NCBI RefSeq assembly: GCF_947496195.1
Contig: NZ_CANMBY010000001.1
Coordinates: forward strand, 682,001 to 746,000
From: an uncultured Polaribacter sp.
Lineage (GTDB): Bacteria > Bacteroidota > Bacteroidia > Flavobacteriales > Flavobacteriaceae
Reading direction: 5' to 3'
DNA: 64,000 nucleotides
The notes under the pieces are model-generated. The model ran no database searches and had not been told where the DNA came from. It was given only the letters and a program-made list of their open reading frames with translations. Below are positions 29,954 through 37,764 of the stretch, piece by piece. The position numbers and the translations under genes are program-made. Numbering within the stretch: the stretch's first letter is position 1; every line of letters starts with the position of its first letter.

Positions 29954-29985
29954 CAAACATACAAAAAGGGTAGAAATCATTACAA
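29954..29985 (-). promoter_or_regulatory. Promoter of recX
   Basis: On the minus strand TATGTTTG (29954-29961) is a TAnnTTTG box, with TTG at 29983-29985 exactly 21 bp upstream as the -33 element. The -33 part lies inside the terminator of the RND operon. The start codon follows 5 nt after the -7 box. Confidence 0.65.
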
Positions 29986-29999
29986 TTTCTACCCTTTTT
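29963..29999 (-). terminator. Terminator of the RND efflux operon
   Basis: AAAAAGGGTAGAAAT (29963-29977) pairs perfectly with ATTTCTACCCTTTTT (29985-29999). On the minus strand it ends the tetR-tolC-mfp-rnd transcript with a T run, and on the plus strand it is equally symmetric. Confidence 0.9.
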
Positions 30000-30019
30000 T
30001 AGTTAACAAAATAATTAAT

Positions 30020-33000
30020 TTATCCTCCTATTTCTTGTATTTGTATAGGCGCTTCTGCATTAGTTTTACCTAACTTTTTAAATAACCACATTTTAAAACG
30101 AGTAATTAAATAAAATAAAATAGGCACAACAATTAAGGTTAAAAAAGTAGCTACAAATAATCCATAAATTACAGTCCAAGCTAATGGACCCCAAAAGATA
30201 ACATTGTCTCCACCCATATAAATTTTTGGATCGAACTCACTAAATAATGAGAAGAAATCGATATTTAAACCAATAGCTAAAGGAATTAATCCTAAAATAG
30301 TAGTTATTGCTGTTAATAATACTGGTCTTAAACGAGCCTTACCTGCTTTTACAACATTTTCTAACAAATATTTCTTAGGTAAATAAGCATTATCATCTAA
30401 ATCTAGTTCCTCTTTTTTTCTGTCAATTAACAATTGGGTATAATCTAAGAGAACTACCCCATTATTTACAACAATACCTGCTAAAGATATAATACCCATC
30501 ATTGTCATCATAATTACAAAAGAAGACCCAGTAATTACAATACCACCAAACACACCAATGAAGCTTAAAAAGATAGCGATCATTATAATTCCTGGTTTAG
30601 AAACCGAATTAAATTGGAAAATTAAAATGAAAAATATTAACGCTAATCCTTTAAAGAAAGCTCCCATTAAAAAGGCTTGTTGTTTGTTTTGTTCTTCTAA
30701 CTGACCTGTATAATCAATTTGTATACCAGAAGGAAGCTCTTTAAAATTCTTCATTTCTTCCTTAATCTTATTTACAGCTGCTGCTGCATCTACATAACCA
30801 GGAGCTAATTGAGAATATACAGTTACCACTCGTTTTGTGTCTCTATGCTTAATAGCACTAAATCCAGAACTATTACTTTGCGTAGCAATAGCAGAAATAG
30901 GGATGGCTCTTACTTGACCAGAAGCCATATCTCTAAAGGTTATTTTTTGATTAAAAATAGCGTTTTTATTATATCTGATATCTTCTTTAAAACGAACATT
31001 TATATCATAATCATCACCATCTTCTTTGTAAATACCTGCTTTTGCGCCAAAAATAGCATTTCGCAATTGTTGACCCACTTGACCAGTAGAAACGCCAAGT
31101 TCACCAGCCTTTTGTCTATCAACAACCACTCTCATAGAAGGCTTGTCTTTATTTACATCTATCTTTAATTCATCTACTTCTGCAATGTTTCTAGAGTTTA
31201 CGTAAGCTCTCATTTTTTCTGCAGTAGCAATTAATTCTTCATAATCATCACCTTCTAACTCTATATTAATTGGAGCACCAGTTGGAGGGCCATTTGCATC
31301 TTTTTCAACAGAGATTAAAACTCCAGGATAAATACCTGTTAAGCCTTCTTGTACTTTTTGACGTAATTTTTCGCTATCTAATCCACGTCTATATTTATAT
31401 TGACGCATAGAAGCTGTAATCTTACCTTTATGAGGCATTTCTGCAGAAGAACCACCATCTGTATTTGGGTTTCCTGCACCTTCACCAACTTGGGAAACCG
31501 AACTTTCTACCATAAAATTATGATCTCCATCCATATACATCTCTTGATTTAAGATGCCATATACACGTTGTTCAATTTCTTTAGTGATTTTATTAGTTTC
31601 ATAAATATCTGTTCCTTGTGGATATTCTATATAAACTACAACTTGATTTGGTTTGTTGTCTGGAAAAAACTCAATTTTAGTTCTTTGTGTTCCAACAGAC
31701 CAACCAAAGCCTCCAAAAGCAGCAAAAAGTAATAGAAATGTACCAATTGTTATTACAACTGGTCTCCATCCTTTTAAAGCGCCTTGCAATGTTTTTTCAT
31801 ATACATTTTCTAACCAAACCAAAGTATTTCTTTGAAAATAATTAGCAGCTTTTCTTAAGATTAATCTATACACCCACAGCATAATTGCTGTAAAAACCAT
31901 TACAGAACCTAAACCTCTATATTCGCCACCAAAAATTAAAATGAATAACCCAACACCACAAACAATTGCAGAAATAGTTATGATTCTTTTTAAAGGCATG
32001 TCTTTATCTTCTGTGGTCATAAATTGTGAAACCAAAACAGAGTTAAAGAAAATAGCAACAACTAATGATGAACCTAATACTACAGAAAGTGTAATTGGGA
32101 AATAAATCATAAACTGACCAAAAAGCCCTGGCCATAAACCCAAAGGAACAAAGGCAGCTACAGTTGTGACTGTAGAAATAATAATTGGGTAAGCAATTTC
32201 TCCAATTCCTTTTTTAGCAGCTTCAATTCTTGTTAGTCCCTCTTCATCCATTAAACGATAGACGTTTTCTACAACCACAATTCCATTATCTACTAACATT
32301 CCTAGCCCCATAATTAATCCAAAAAGAATCATAGTGTTCAAGGTATACCCTAATGCTCCTAAAATTGCAAGAGACATAAACATAGACATAGGTATTGCAA
32401 AACCTACGAATAATGCATTTTTAAAGCCTAAGAAAAACATTAAAACAGTAACTACTAAGATGATTCCAAAAATGATGTTATTTACTAAATCATCTACTTG
32501 ACCAATAGTTTTATCTGATAAATCGTTAGTAATTACTACTTCTAAATCTGGAGGAAATCTTTCGTTAATAGCTTTATTTACGATGGTTTTAATTTCTTCT
32601 GCTGCTGCAACCATGTTTTTACCTGCTCGCTTTTTTACATCAAGCATTACAACAGGTTTACCTTCTTTTCTAGCAAATGTGGTTTTATCTTTTTCTCTAA
32701 AAGAAATAGTAGCTATATCTTTTAAATAGATAGAATTTCCTTTTTCTGATTTTACAACAAAATCTTTTAAGTCTGAAGGGTCTTCTATTTCACCTAGAAT
32801 TCTAATAGTTCTTCTTTGTCCGCTTGAAATTAAATTACCAGCAGAAGAAGTTACATTTCCTCTTTGGATAGCAGAAGTGATATCATCGAAACTAACTTGC
32901 ATAGCCATCATTTTATAGATGTCTACAGCAACTTCTACTTCTTTGTCTTGAACACCTCTAATATCTGCTTGTTTAACTTCAGATAAATCTTCTATTTCAT

Positions 33001-33535
33001 CTTGTAAATCTTCTGCAAATTCTTTTAACTTTTGAAGTGGGTAATCCCCAGAAATATTAATATTTAAAAACGGAATTTCCTCAGATAAATTTAAATCAAA
33101 AGCATTAGGGTCTACTTTTGCACCATTAAAAGTAGGCCAGTCTTCAGAAGCTTTTTCTGTATCTAATTTATCTTTTACACGTTGTTTGGCAACTTCAACA
33201 TTCATGTCATCATCAAATTCTACAATAATCATAGAATAATCTTCTTGAGATGTTGAGGTGATTTCTACAACACCACTTAAACCTTTTAATTGGTCTTCTA
33301 ATGGATCTGTAATTAGTTTCTCTATATCTTCTGCAGTGTTACCAGGGTAAAGTGTACTAATGTATATTTTAGTTTCTTTTATTTCTGGAAAATCTTCTCT
33401 AGGCATACTAAAATAGGCAGATATACCAAGAACAAGAATTAAGAATATAGCAACATACATAGTGGTTTTGTTGTTAATTGCCCACGATGAAAGTTTAAAT
33501 TCTTTATCTGTTTTTTTCTGTTGATTTTTTTTCAT
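30020..33535 (-). CDS. RND-family multidrug efflux permease (AcrB-like)
   Basis: At 1171 aa this inner-membrane proton-driven pump is longer than AcrB (about 1050). The extra length lies mainly after TM6, where two additional hydrophobic stretches occur (IITISAIVCGVGLFILIFGG and SVMVFTAIMLWVYRLIL). TM4 reads GMLVDNGIVVVENV: the first proton-relay Asp is kept but the second is Asn. TM10 reads GIVVNNGVVLLDY and lacks the AcrB lysine, a pattern seen in a separate AcrB-like subgroup. Adaptor and outer-membrane genes lie directly upstream in the same operon. Confidence 0.95.
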   Translation of the reverse strand: MKKNQQKKTDKEFKLSSWAINNKTTMYVAIFLILVLGISAYFSMPREDFPEIKETKIYISTLYPGNTAEDIEKLITDPLEDQLKGLSGVVEITSTSQEDYSMIIVEFDDDMNVEVAKQRVKDKLDTEKASEDWPTFNGAKVDPNAFDLNLSEEIPFLNINISGDYPLQKLKEFAEDLQDEIEDLSEVKQADIRGVQDKEVEVAVDIYKMMAMQVSFDDITSAIQRGNVTSSAGNLISSGQRRTIRILGEIEDPSDLKDFVVKSEKGNSIYLKDIATISFREKDKTTFARKEGKPVVMLDVKKRAGKNMVAAAEEIKTIVNKAINERFPPDLEVVITNDLSDKTIGQVDDLVNNIIFGIILVVTVLMFFLGFKNALFVGFAIPMSMFMSLAILGALGYTLNTMILFGLIMGLGMLVDNGIVVVENVYRLMDEEGLTRIEAAKKGIGEIAYPIIISTVTTVAAFVPLGLWPGLFGQFMIYFPITLSVVLGSSLVVAIFFNSVLVSQFMTTEDKDMPLKRIITISAIVCGVGLFILIFGGEYRGLGSVMVFTAIMLWVYRLILRKAANYFQRNTLVWLENVYEKTLQGALKGWRPVVITIGTFLLLFAAFGGFGWSVGTQRTKIEFFPDNKPNQVVVYIEYPQGTDIYETNKITKEIEQRVYGILNQEMYMDGDHNFMVESSVSQVGEGAGNPNTDGGSSAEMPHKGKITASMRQYKYRRGLDSEKLRQKVQEGLTGIYPGVLISVEKDANGPPTGAPINIELEGDDYEELIATAEKMRAYVNSRNIAEVDELKIDVNKDKPSMRVVVDRQKAGELGVSTGQVGQQLRNAIFGAKAGIYKEDGDDYDINVRFKEDIRYNKNAIFNQKITFRDMASGQVRAIPISAIATQSNSSGFSAIKHRDTKRVVTVYSQLAPGYVDAAAAVNKIKEEMKNFKELPSGIQIDYTGQLEEQNKQQAFLMGAFFKGLALIFFILIFQFNSVSKPGIIMIAIFLSFIGVFGGIVITGSSFVIMMTMMGIISLAGIVVNNGVVLLDYTQLLIDRKKEELDLDDNAYLPKKYLLENVVKAGKARLRPVLLTAITTILGLIPLAIGLNIDFFSLFSEFDPKIYMGGDNVIFWGPLAWTVIYGLFVATFLTLIVVPILFYLITRFKMWLFKKLGKTNAEAPIQIQEIGG

Positions 33536-33546
33536 CTTACGTTTAA

Positions 33547-34716
33547 TTAAGATTTAGATATTTTAACTTCTTGTCCGTTTTTTACGCTTCTAGCACCTGC
33601 TTCAATTAACACATCTCCAGAAGTTACACCTTCTAAAATTTCGATAACATCACCTTGAGTTTTTCCTGTTTTTACTACAGTTTGTGTAGCAATTCCTTTA
33701 TCATTATTCAAGTTTTTGATTACATATACATATTGTTCTCCATTTGCATTTTCAGAGATAATACTTTGCGGAATTAAAATAGCTTCTGCATTTGTATAAT
33801 CGTTTATTTTAAGTTTAGCAGTTAAATTAGGCTTAATGCTTCTGTCGTTATTTGGTACACCAACCTCTATCTTAAAAGTTCTATTAGCAGGATTTATAAA
33901 ATTACCTGTTTGTCTAACTTTAGTTTCTAAACTTTTACCTAACACAGGGAAGTCTATTTCTACATATTTACCAATTGTAACATCTGTAATATAACTTTCT
34001 GGAATATCAGCCTCTATAAACATATTGCTTAGGTTTACTATTCTAAAAATTTCTGCACCTGGCCCAGGAGCAACAACAGTACCTTGATCTTTAATAACAT
34101 CATCGATAACACCAGAAAAAGGAGCTCTAATTGTAAACTTATCTATTTGCTTTTTTAGTTGCGCTAATTGGTTTTTACTCGCTTCATAATTGGTTTTAGT
34201 TTGTAAATACTGAATTTCTGAACCAATTTTTTCATCCCACAATCTTTTTTGACGTTCAAAAGTTGTTTTAGCTAAAGCAGTAGTTGCTTCTAATTGAGCA
34301 ACTTGTTGTTCTAAACCACCATTATCTATTCTTCCTAAAGCTTGACCTTTTGAAACTTTTTGACCTTCTTTAACAAAAACCTTTTCTAAAGTACCTGCAA
34401 CTTCTGGATAAATTAAAACATTTTGTTTTGTAGTTACATTTCCTTGTAGCTCTAAAAAATGTGTGAATACTTCATTTTTAAGTTTTATAGCTGTTACTAA
34501 AGGCACTCTTTTTAAAGTGTCTAATATTTCGATTTCTGTATTTAATAACTTAATTTCTGCAGAAATTTGTTGCATTTTATTATCTAGTTCAGATTTTTTT
34601 GCACGAATTTGAGCTAAATCTTTACTGGCGATAACATCACTTAAAGATTGTTCTTTTTGACCTCCACAAGAAGATAAAACAAGAATAATGGCGAATATTG
34701 AATATATTTTTTTCAT
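33547..34716 (-). CDS. RND efflux periplasmic adaptor (membrane fusion lipoprotein)
   Basis: A lipoprotein signal (FAIILVLSSCGG) anchors the protein in the periplasmic face of the inner membrane. A coiled coil (about residues 25-65 and 135-185; QQISAEIKLLNTEIEILDTL) is flanked by a lipoyl half-motif (VLIYPEVAGTLEKVFVKEGQKVSKGQALGRID) and its partner (FTIRAPFSGVIDDVIKDQGTVVAPG). The beta-barrel and membrane-proximal domains follow. It bridges the RND pump and the TolC-like channel. It ends 11 bp before the permease gene. Confidence 0.95.
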   Translation of the reverse strand: MKKIYSIFAIILVLSSCGGQKEQSLSDVIASKDLAQIRAKKSELDNKMQQISAEIKLLNTEIEILDTLKRVPLVTAIKLKNEVFTHFLELQGNVTTKQNVLIYPEVAGTLEKVFVKEGQKVSKGQALGRIDNGGLEQQVAQLEATTALAKTTFERQKRLWDEKIGSEIQYLQTKTNYEASKNQLAQLKKQIDKFTIRAPFSGVIDDVIKDQGTVVAPGPGAEIFRIVNLSNMFIEADIPESYITDVTIGKYVEIDFPVLGKSLETKVRQTGNFINPANRTFKIEVGVPNNDRSIKPNLTAKLKINDYTNAEAILIPQSIISENANGEQYVYVIKNLNNDKGIATQTVVKTGKTQGDVIEILEGVTSGDVLIEAGARSVKNGQEVKISKS

Positions 34717-34727
34717 TGCTGATTAGT

Positions 34728-36059
34728 TTATTTAATTGGAATATTTAATGCGTTTTCTAAAGCTGCTTTTTTAGCAATTACATCTAACATAGATTGCAAA
34801 TAATTTTGTTGCTGGCTGTATAATTGATTTTGTGCTTGTAATAAATCGAAACTAGAAGAAAGACCTTCGAAAAATTTAATACGTTGTTTCTTTTCTATTC
34901 GTTCAGCAAGGTCTACGTTTTTCTTTGCTGTTTGATAACTTTCTACACTAAATTGATAATCATTTTTAGCACTTTCTACTTGTAATTTAAGTTTCTGTTT
35001 AGTTTCTTCTAAACGAATATCAGAATTTTCTAAGTCAATTTTAGCTTGTGCAGTTTTTGCTTTTCTACCAAAACTACTAAAAATAGGCACGTTTAAACTT
35101 ACACCTAAAAGTGAAGATTGAAACCAACGTTGATCGCTATCAAAAAAAGTAAACTCGTTAGAAAAAGCTTGCGTACCGTAATTAACGAATGCATTTAAAG
35201 TAGGTAAATTTTTACTCTTTTCTAGTTTTACCATTAAACGCTTTGTTTCTCTATCATTTTCTGCAATTTTATAGTCTATATGATTGTCTACCATAAAACT
35301 TTTTGAAATAAGATTTAGATTGATATTTTGTTCTGCAAGAGAATCTAGAGTATCTGTTAAAACTAAATTAACTTCAATTGGGTTTCCTAAAGCAAGGTTT
35401 AAAAATCGATAAGCTATAGTTTCTAATCTTTTAAAATTATTTAATTGATTTTTTAAACTACTTAAAGTAATTTCTAACTGTTCTACATCTTCTTCTTCAT
35501 TTAAACCATTTTCGAATATTTTTTTAGCATCATTATAATTTTTTTGAAGAATTTTAATGTTGCTTTCTAAAACTGTAATTGTACTTTCTGTAAGTAATAC
35601 ATTACCATAAGCATTTATTACAGCTTCTCTTGTTATATATTCTGTTTTTTGTTGTGCTTGTTCAGATATTTTTAAAAATGTTTTAGAAGCTTGTAAACCT
35701 ACAAGATAAGAACCATCAAATAACAATTGCCTTAGAGTTACAGCAACATTCATGTTTTGTTTTGTACCAAAAACAAACTCTTCATTTACTCCATCACCAT
35801 TTATATCTGCTACAGTAATAGGTTGTTTTAAAAAGTTTTGATAATCTACAGCTCCATTTATTTGAGGTAAACCAATTGTTGTAGTTTCCCAAACTTTTTT
35901 CTTTGCAGATTCTATATCATTAATGGCAACTTTTGCGTTGTAACTATTTTCTAAAGCAAATTCTATTGCTTGCCTTAAAGATAGCTGCATGGTTTTTTCT
36001 TGAGCATTAGTATTCATTACAAATGCAAACAGAAAAAAGAGAAAGCCTATTTTTTTCAT
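34728..36059 (-). CDS. TolC-family outer membrane efflux protein
   Basis: A signal peptide (MKKIGFLFFLFAFVMNTNAQ) leads into two TolC-type repeats: LSLRQAIEFALENSYNAKVAINDIESAKKKVWETTTIGLPQINGAVDY at the start and IRLEETKQKLKLQVESAKNDYQFSVESYQTAKKNVDLAERIEKKQRIKFFEGL in the second half, both spread over several helices. The 443-aa length is normal for a trimeric outer membrane channel. It lies 9 bp after tetR and 11 bp before the adaptor gene. Confidence 0.94.
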   Translation of the reverse strand: MKKIGFLFFLFAFVMNTNAQEKTMQLSLRQAIEFALENSYNAKVAINDIESAKKKVWETTTIGLPQINGAVDYQNFLKQPITVADINGDGVNEEFVFGTKQNMNVAVTLRQLLFDGSYLVGLQASKTFLKISEQAQQKTEYITREAVINAYGNVLLTESTITVLESNIKILQKNYNDAKKIFENGLNEEEDVEQLEITLSSLKNQLNNFKRLETIAYRFLNLALGNPIEVNLVLTDTLDSLAEQNINLNLISKSFMVDNHIDYKIAENDRETKRLMVKLEKSKNLPTLNAFVNYGTQAFSNEFTFFDSDQRWFQSSLLGVSLNVPIFSSFGRKAKTAQAKIDLENSDIRLEETKQKLKLQVESAKNDYQFSVESYQTAKKNVDLAERIEKKQRIKFFEGLSSSFDLLQAQNQLYSQQQNYLQSMLDVIAKKAALENALNIPIK

Positions 36060-36068
36060 ATTATAATT

Positions 36069-36665
36069 CTATTTTTCAAGTTGATTTTCTAATTGTTTTA
36101 TTCCTTTTGCTGTACAGATTCCTCTTAAATGATATTCGTAATAAAAGTTAAGAAGTGTTTTCATTGAATAATTTTTAAGCGGAAACATATCATTATCTTT
36201 TATGCCTGTAAGACCGTTAAAATATATTCTAGAGATAAATTCTAAATCTATATTTGGTCTATACAATCCTAATTCAATTCCTTTTTTTAAATTATCAATA
36301 ACACATTCTTGCATTACTTCGAATTGTTTTTTCTTTAAAGACAAAAAAATCTTTGGGTAGTATTTTTGTAGTTGATATTGAGGAGAAGATTTTTCGTCTT
36401 TTAAATGCTCCATCACAAATCTTTTTATTGAAAAAAGCTCATCAATAGGATTCATATTTAAATGACATATATGGTCTATTCCACAAGAAATTGAATCGAA
36501 AACATGATTGGTAACAGCATTTACCAAATCTGTTTTGTTATTAAAATATTTATAAATCGTTTTTTTAGAAACACCAAGAGCACTTGCTATTTCGTCCATA
36601 GTAACGCTTTTAAATCCAAGATTTAAAAACAACTCAGTTGATTTTTCTACTATTTTTTGTTCCAT
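36069..36665 (-). CDS. TetR/AcrR-family repressor of the efflux operon
   Basis: The N-terminal helix-turn-helix is SVTMDEIASALGVSKKTIYKYFNNKTDLV, typical of TetR/AcrR. The C-terminal about 140 residues form the ligand-binding and dimer domain. It is the first gene of the tolC-mfp-rnd operon, so it probably represses its own transcript until a pump substrate binds. I prefer ATG 36665 (198 aa, MEQKIVEKS) to 36686. A 13-7-13 palindrome centred on a -7 box (36691-36723) lies just upstream and is the likely operator. Confidence 0.92.
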   Translation of the reverse strand: MEQKIVEKSTELFLNLGFKSVTMDEIASALGVSKKTIYKYFNNKTDLVNAVTNHVFDSISCGIDHICHLNMNPIDELFSIKRFVMEHLKDEKSSPQYQLQKYYPKIFLSLKKKQFEVMQECVIDNLKKGIELGLYRPNIDLEFISRIYFNGLTGIKDNDMFPLKNYSMKTLLNFYYEYHLRGICTAKGIKQLENQLEK

Positions 36666-36690
36666 AATTTGAATGCAAAAATACAAATGG

Positions 36691-36723
36691 AAACTTTAGA
36701 AACAAAAATAGTTTCCAAAGTTT
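36691..36723 (-). promoter_or_regulatory. TetR operator palindrome with the -7 box in its centre
   Basis: On the plus strand AAACTTTAGAAAC (36691-36703) and GTTTCCAAAGTTT (36711-36723) are 13-bp inverted arms with one mismatch, separated by AAAAATA. On the minus strand the spacer plus the next base reads TATTTTTG, a perfect TAnnTTTG box, about 38 bp from the tetR ATG. A second TATTTTTG at 36676-36683 is too close to the ATG to be the main promoter. Confidence 0.75.
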
Positions 36724-36792
36724 TAAAGATTTTTTAACATTTACTTAAAAAAGAAGCATTTCTTTACATTATTTTTACAAAAAATTTCAGTT

Positions 36793-37764
36793 TTGGATAT
36801 TTTACATTATCAAAAAGAGTTTCTTTCTTATTTAGAATCAAAAGAATGGGTTCGTGAACCAAAAAATTTATACGAACCAATTGATTATATTTTGCAATTA
36901 GGAGGTAAGCGCATGCGTCCTATTTTAACACTCATGGCTGCAGATATTTTTTCTGGAGAATTTAAGAAAGCATTACCAGCTGCTTTAGCTGTTGAGGTTT
37001 TTCATAATTTTACTTTAGTGCATGATGATATAATGGATGATGCACCTTTAAGAAGAGGTAAAGAAACGGTTCATGAAAAGTGGGATACTAGCACAGGTAT
37101 TTTATCTGGAGATGCTATGCTAATTTTAGCATATCAATATTTTGAAAACTACGAACCAGAGGTTTTTCAAAAATTAGCAAAGCTATTTAGTAAAACAGCT
37201 CTTGAGGTTTGCGATGGCCAACAGTTAGATGTTGATTTTGAAACTAGAAAAAATGTAAGTATTGATGAATACATGAATATGATTCGTTTAAAAACATCTG
37301 TATTGGTTGCAGCAGCTTTAAAAATGGGTGCTATTGTTGCAAAGACTAATGATGAAAATGCAGATTTAATTTACGATTTTGGATTAAACCTAGGTTTGGC
37401 GTTTCAATTACAAGATGATTATTTAGATACTTTTGGAGACCCAGAGACTTTTGGCAAACAAGTAGGTGGAGATATTATAGAAAACAAGAAAACATTTTTA
37501 TATTTAAAAGCTTTAGAAGTTGCAGATAAAGAAACTGCTAAAAAATTAAAGTATTTCTATAAAAGAAAACGAAAAGACAATACTATTAAAGTAACAGAGG
37601 TTACTCGTATTTTTCAAATATTTGATATACCTTTATTAATATCAGAAGAAATAAAGAGTTATACACAAAAAGCTTTTGATACTTTAGATAGAATGAGCAT
37701 TAGTCAAGAAAATAAAGATAAATTAAAAAACTTTGGTACTTGGTTAATGAATAGAACAGTTTAA
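36793..37764 (+). CDS. Polyprenyl synthase (trans-isoprenyl diphosphate synthase)
   Basis: The 323-aa enzyme joins isopentenyl diphosphate to allylic diphosphates. The first Asp-rich motif is LVHDDIMDDAPLRRGKETVH and the second is LQDDYLDTFGDPETFGKQVGGDI; GGKRMRPIL contributes the N-terminal Lys-Arg. Small residues upstream of the first motif (EVFHNFTLVHDD) are compatible with geranyl/geranylgeranyl or longer products, which I cannot fix from sequence. The start codon is TTG (LDILHYQ in raw translation, read as Met). It is divergent from the tetR operon. Confidence 0.92.
   Translation: MDILHYQKEFLSYLESKEWVREPKNLYEPIDYILQLGGKRMRPILTLMAADIFSGEFKKALPAALAVEVFHNFTLVHDDIMDDAPLRRGKETVHEKWDTSTGILSGDAMLILAYQYFENYEPEVFQKLAKLFSKTALEVCDGQQLDVDFETRKNVSIDEYMNMIRLKTSVLVAAALKMGAIVAKTNDENADLIYDFGLNLGLAFQLQDDYLDTFGDPETFGKQVGGDIIENKKTFLYLKALEVADKETAKKLKYFYKRKRKDNTIKVTEVTRIFQIFDIPLLISEEIKSYTQKAFDTLDRMSISQENKDKLKNFGTWLMNRTV

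Follow-up and report, generated by a model that had tools for sequence, protein, structure and literature searches.

The 64,000-nucleotide stretch of Polaribacter DNA analysed here (the window) carries a four-gene efflux operon that begins with a gene for a TetR-type repressor, and an inverted repeat in front of this gene very probably serves that repressor as its docking site. We estimate a probability of about 0.85 that the site is the operator through which the repressor would control its own operon, from a promoter whose −7 element lies just downstream of the repeat. The system is of an ordinary type; what is notable is the strict conservation of the operator, combined with a repressor gene that is predicted to be nearly leaderless. 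Three consequences deserve mention. One is that a precise operator can be proposed for an RND efflux repressor, found once per genome in all 66 genomes that have the exact motif, while in the literature searched no regulator of this kind with a mapped site turned up for Flavobacteriaceae. Another is that the position of the promoter is corrected: the operator would cover its upstream part, and not the part named in an earlier note on this DNA. The last is that the site might serve as an inducible promoter in the genetics of Flavobacteriaceae.

The efflux operon and its repressor

The genes are arranged in the order tetR, tolC, adaptor gene and RND pump gene, with tetR nearest to the promoter:

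36069–36665, minus strand: tetR, TetR/AcrR-type repressor, 198 aa (TetR_N PF00440, 5e-14, 52.2 bits, cut-off 24)
34728–36059, minus strand: TolC-type outer-membrane factor (PF02321, 4.9e-47)
33547–34716, minus strand: RND periplasmic adaptor (TIGR01730, 5.4e-59, above the cut-off)
30020–33535, minus strand: RND permease, 1171 aa (PF00873, 1.1e-164)

The tolC gene directly follows tetR in 117 of the 118 testable loci, L063 being the sole exception. A strong inverted repeat, AAAAAGGGTAGAA / TTCTACCCTTTTT, is located at 29962–30000, just past the RND gene, and is a probable terminator of the operon.

The structural model of the repressor is all-helical and TetR-like (pLDDT 92.5). In the comparison with solved folds, TetR-family regulators fill the top rows, headed by 3f0c (Z 17.2, rmsd 2.8, 182 residues aligned), and a sequence search of solved structures returned only distant TetR-family chains (best 6.3e-08). 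The recognition-helix residues S33, K34, K35, T36 and Y38 are the same in all of 50 orthologues (32–100% identity), and so are K44 and L47, as would be expected if one DNA sequence were recognised throughout.

The inverted repeat in the window

Operator positions are counted on the tetR strand, with the first G of GGAAAC as position 1, and the window coordinate is 36717 minus the position. Two descriptions of the repeat are used:

36691–36723, no strand assigned: palindrome of the earlier note, with 13-bp arms and a 7-bp spacer
36689–36716, minus strand: core operator GGAAACTATTTTTGTTTCTAAAGTTTCC, with strong half-sites GGAAACT and AGTTTCC (GGAAAC-N16-GTTTCC)

The arms AAACTTTAGAAAC (36691–36703) and GTTTCCAAAGTTT (36711–36723) are indeed, as the earlier note had it, 13 bp long, inverted, 7 bp apart and complementary except for one mismatch (92%); equally correct was its reading that the spacer plus position 36703 gives a perfect TAnnTTTG box, TATTTTTG, on the minus strand. 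The segment that it delimited, 36660–36723, also includes the start codon of tetR (an ATG whose A is at 36665) and, at 36683–36676 on the minus strand, a further perfect TAnnTTTG that it did not mention. Taken singly, the palindrome is weak and hardly above chance, because when the 127-bp intergenic region (19% GC) was dinucleotide-shuffled 4000 times, 252 of the shuffles had an equally good one, and the 64-kb window has such palindromes at 8 separate places (17 overlapping records). It is conservation that carries the case.

When the whole Polaribacter genome was searched, as had been proposed, the operator site was found in a single copy. Shorter patterns were rejected as markers. GAAAC-N7-GTTTC alone is not diagnostic, with 15 places in this genome and 3 for the reversed control, and the loose pattern GGAAACN{15,18}GTTTCC is unspecific (82 forward matches versus 46 for the reversed control, summed over 59 genomes). 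An 18-base pattern, GGAAACTNNNNNNGTTTNNNNAGTTTCC, which corresponds to the 28-bp GGAAACT-N6-GTTT-N4-AGTTTCC, was therefore used in place of the loose one.

Conservation of the operator

We compared two samples. The first consists of genome contigs chosen by peptides of this TetR itself, a choice biased towards close relatives. The 128 loci of TetR orthologues gave 121 distinct upstream regions, after L061, whose upstream is truncated at the end of its contig, and L112, which lacks the N-terminus, were left out and 5 upstreams of identical sequence were merged; 107 of them form the same-family set and 14 are distant. Since these loci lean to close relatives, a second sample of 100 Flavobacteriaceae genomes, one per genus, was drawn. 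A set of 130 sites was assembled from the 107 same-family sites and the sites of 23 orthologues with inexact motifs in the second sample, whose 66 genomes with the exact motif were not added.

GGAAAC-N16-GTTTCC was found with 0–1 mismatch in all 107 same-family upstreams. The operator core, with N16 or N17 and again 0–1 mismatch, was also present in 13 of the 14 distant upstreams; the one without it, L063, is a 32% identity match that lacks tolC and is probably not an orthologue. In the second sample, the 18-base motif occurs exactly once in each of 66 of the 100 genera, and its reversed pattern in none of the 100 genomes. A TetR orthologue is present in 89 of these genomes, among them all 66 with the exact motif, and every one of these 66 motifs lies on the same contig and strand as the orthologue, 19–114 bp before its protein match. 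The other 23 orthologue-bearing genomes have the motif with one (16), two (6) or three (1) mismatches, and the 11 genomes that lack an orthologue, some of them incomplete assemblies, have no exact motif. The chance that 66 sites would all fall among the 89 genomes is 2e-6 if the genomes are taken as independent, which they are not. Across the 130 sites, which share descent so that the columns are not independent, 19 operator columns (−6 to 28) keep one base in at least 95% of the sites; outside the operator, only two columns of the −7 box reach this level in the compared stretch. The absence of a palindrome in front of orthologous operons, which the earlier note had named as evidence against its proposal, is thus excluded for the 107 same-family upstreams and the 89 genomes with an orthologue, and its basic claim of a TetR operator for the efflux operon is well supported by this comparison.

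Four half-site units and the number of dimers

The near-invariant columns of the 130 sites fall into four units. Unit a comprises A−6, A−4 and C−3; unit b, GAAAC(T) at positions 2–7; unit c, G14, T15 and T17; and unit d, AGTTTC(C) at positions 22–28. Units b and d belong to the strong half-sites, and the other two are as follows:

36720–36723, minus strand: outer weak unit a, AAAC, positions −6 to −3 (A−6 130/130, A−4 130/130, C−3 129/130)
36700–36703, minus strand: inner weak unit c, GTTT, positions 14 to 17 (G14 and T15 130/130, T16 111/130, T17 127/130)

Both a and c vary at the corresponding inner base (−5 and 16, respectively), and this suggests a single type of weaker half-site. The GAAAC/GTTTC sub-sites that the earlier note rightly saw in its arms are accordingly part of a conserved set of four.

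Two symmetries are built on these four AAAC/GTTT units. The axis of the earlier note (position 10) mirrors b with c and a with d. The other axis (position 14.5) mirrors b with d and pairs the GG and CC that remain unpaired on the former; it belongs to the most conserved symmetry, GGAAAC-N16-GTTTCC (36689–36716), and lies 4.5 bp away. With 0–1 mismatch, the full 13-bp arms of the former are found in 30 of the 130 sites and the 9-bp arms of the latter in 120, while mean pairing over 18 positions is higher for the former (0.620 versus 0.552). The covariation excess over column independence (0.06 for the former, 0.07 for the latter) does not choose between the axes, the operator being too invariant, and for this reason we argue from the invariant columns.

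The spacing bears on the number of bound dimers. At 3.4 angstroms per bp, b and d are separated by 20 bp (~68 angstroms) and b and c by 11 bp (~37 angstroms). In QacR, the recognition helices are ~39 angstroms apart, in a form described as similar in this respect to the DNA-bound one (PMC3022030). Judged by this geometry, one TetR-type dimer could span b–c, but not b–d. Two dimers on the operator are therefore the likely arrangement, as the strong pair b–d would be too far apart for one; the earlier note's suggestion that two dimers could bind is thus plausible.

Predicted promoter, transcription start and leader

Four features are relevant to the promoter:

36703–36710, minus strand: box A, TATTTTTG, operator positions 7–14, taken as the −7 box in the earlier note and read here as the −33 region
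36676–36683, minus strand: box B, TATTTTTG, operator positions 34–41, conserved −7 element
36671, minus strand: predicted transcription start, from box B and published spacing, with the leader at 36671–36666
36729–36740, minus strand: upstream A-tract, ATGTTAAAAAAT (column −19 T 117/130, column −17 A 122/130)

In Bacteroidetes, the housekeeping promoter consists of a −33 TTTG and a −7 TAnnTTTG element, the latter occupying −12 to −5 in Flavobacterium (PMC6847099, PMC9723704). Box B is located 27 bp downstream of box A, just outside the operator. At its place, TAnnTTTG, which agrees with the Bacteroidetes sigma-A −7 element, is found in 105 of the 107 same-family sites and in 125 of all 130, versus 13 of 130 at the place of box A. 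From the Flavobacterium spacing, the start is predicted at about 36671, with a leader of ~6 nt; a start far from 36697, which the earlier note had named as evidence against its proposal, is thus what the sequence predicts. With this start, box B would match the housekeeping promoter in position as well as in consensus; the operator core would extend from −45 to −18 and the whole operator from about −52 to −18, the −33 region included, and the TTG of the spacer would occupy −34 to −32, that is, the −33 position. This TTG (operator positions 12–14) is seen in 74 of the 130 sites. The −33 element is thus only partly conserved here, and it is also described as weak or partly conserved in F. johnsoniae (PMC6847099).

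In 92 of 105 same-family sites, a gap of 6–10 nt separates box B from the start codon, which would correspond to a leader of 2–6 nt in most of Flavobacteriaceae. Such a short leader is not universal, because the gap is at least 13 nt in 9 of the 105. It would be unusual in this group: leaders exceed 10 nt in 87% of the predicted transcripts of F. johnsoniae (PMC6847099), and leaderless mRNAs are put at 5.5% in F. psychrophilum (PMC9723704). In one locus, L105, the operator is 142 bp before the aligned tetR start, and a stop comes only a few codons after the ATG in the usual position, so the tetR start there differs from that of the other loci.

Relative to the predicted start, the A-tract ATGTTAAAAAAT would occupy about −69 to −58. 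The tract, given as GTTAAAAAA, is kept in 6 of the 7 loci in which the divergent gene is more than 1.1 kb away, with the form GTTAAATAA in L123. Since it stays with tetR where that gene is far, it seems to be a part of the tetR promoter.

Alternative explanations

The earlier note proposed that the operator is built around the −7 box, with box A in the spacer as this element, a start near 36697 and the repressor sitting directly on it. Box A is a perfect TAnnTTTG, and the resulting leader of ~32 nt would be close to the 33-nt average of F. johnsoniae (PMC6847099). The scarcity of box A relative to box B is, however, difficult to reconcile with this promoter: operator and operon are kept in orthologues that have no box A, and no TTG is present at the right distance upstream of it. 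We consider this arrangement improbable, and the promoter assignment and start of the earlier note are very probably wrong, although box A could provide a second start in those species that have it. A chance palindrome in AT-rich DNA would explain why shuffled sequences and other places in the window match its quality, but not the 19 conserved columns or the occurrence of one copy per genome at one gene; conservation refutes this explanation, and we give it practically no weight.

A polyprenyl synthetase gene runs divergently from tetR, from about 36793, and the palindrome might mainly serve this gene or a regulator common to both. The synthetase is indeed found upstream on the opposite strand in 106 of 119 testable loci. 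In 7 of these 106, however, it is more than 1.1 kb away (L098, L123, L132, L135, L138, L142 and L143), and it did not turn up in the available flank of the loci from distant families, L053 excepted; the operator nevertheless adjoins tetR in all 7 and in the distant families, except in L063. Moreover, the full motif never occurs without TetR in the 100 genera. A main role at the synthetase is thus very unlikely, and control of the operon by its own repressor, with the promoter at box B, is the reading retained below. As to the synthetase itself, its start in the listed frame is TTG at 36793; of 98 relatives (ten commonest classes), 44 also have TTG at the aligned position, and near relatives may thus share a start other than ATG.

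Proposed mechanism and comparison with known systems

RNA polymerase would use the −7 box at 36683–36676 together with a −33 region that the middle of the operator provides, and start at about 36671. When no inducer is present, the repressor, probably as two dimers, would occupy GGAAACT-N14-AGTTTCC and the weaker AAAC and GTTT units. It would thereby cover about −52 to −18 and bar the polymerase from the −33 region and the spacer. A substrate of the pump would free the operator of repressor, so that pump and repressor would be produced together, while the almost leaderless mRNA would hold repressor synthesis at a modest level.

Riemerella belongs to the same bacterial order. The operon is likened by gene order to raeR-raeC-raeA-raeB of Riemerella anatipestifer, which also comprises genes for a TetR regulator, an outer-membrane factor, an adaptor and an RND pump, and whose pump contributes to aminoglycoside and detergent resistance (PMC5727081). 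The main text of that report mentions no operator, and the strings 'palindrom' and 'operon' are absent from it. A search of the mostly open-access literature, including one for GGAAACTTT together with TetR, gave no described operator for this repressor among the matches listed.

The mode of binding would resemble that of QacR of Staphylococcus aureus, a TetR-family repressor of an efflux gene with the same fold, whose site IR1 is a large inverted repeat that overlaps the promoter and is bound by a pair of dimers (PMC3022030). The large inverted repeat here would likewise overlap the promoter, its 28 bp reaching from −45 to −18 relative to the predicted start. DNA-bound QacR (1jt0) superposes on the TetR model with Z 15.2 and rmsd 3.6 over 180 aligned residues. 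The two differ in that identity over the fold is 18% and that IR1 is located at the pump gene qacA, whereas the present operator precedes the operon to which the repressor gene itself belongs; a pair of dimers is stated for QacR and is the likely arrangement here. The acuR-acuI-dddL operon of Rhodobacter sphaeroides is similar in that a TetR-family gene is the first of the operon and the operator overlaps the promoter (PMC3017554). Its mRNA is leaderless, with the start mapped exactly to the AUG, so that a TetR-type operon without a leader has a precedent by measurement, whereas a leader of ~6 nt is predicted here; its operator, TAATAGAC-n6-GTCTATTA, is unlike the present one in sequence (PMC3017554).

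The operator in distant families and operator-like second sites

In 8 of the 11 distant loci with a −7 box, the distance from the operator start to this box is 42–46, versus 32–33 in the same family, that is, about one helical turn more. A GTxT unit after d, at the mirror place of a, was found in 5 of these 8 loci (L050, L051, L052, L057 and L060), with a background rate of 2% in the upstream DNA of the same sequences; the pattern was noticed post hoc, and two of the five, L057 and L060, belong to a single family. The unit is absent in the 3 distant loci with the short distance and in L059, one of the 8. The exact upstream AAAC unit is present in 5 of 13 distant loci (L051, L053, L057, L059 and L060), including 3 of the 8.

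We tentatively suggest a scheme that, taken as a whole, is more doubtful than probable. The operator would combine two strong half-sites, GGAAACT and AGTTTCC at a distance of 20 bp, with weak units (AxAC/GTxT) placed 9 bp to their outside or inside. Some other families would have it ~11 bp farther from the −7 box and with a downstream outer weak unit in addition. In Flavobacteriaceae, it would lie one turn nearer to the start, with the −7 box replacing the downstream unit and the inner weak unit at −33. The repressor would thus have held its helical phase with the polymerase while promoter elements took the place of half-sites, and across the whole of Flavobacteriaceae its mRNA would have almost no leader.

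A second operator-like site was observed in two other members of the genus, at 2515–2542 of L147 (G035) and 2527–2554 of L148 (G002). It is flanked by genes that we take, from their translations, to be anhydromuramic acid kinase-like and glutamate dehydrogenase-like, and it precedes the latter. The site may be either a second member of the regulon or a relic of a lost tetR copy, and its position before the glutamate dehydrogenase gene in these two members suggests that the regulon is not always one operon.
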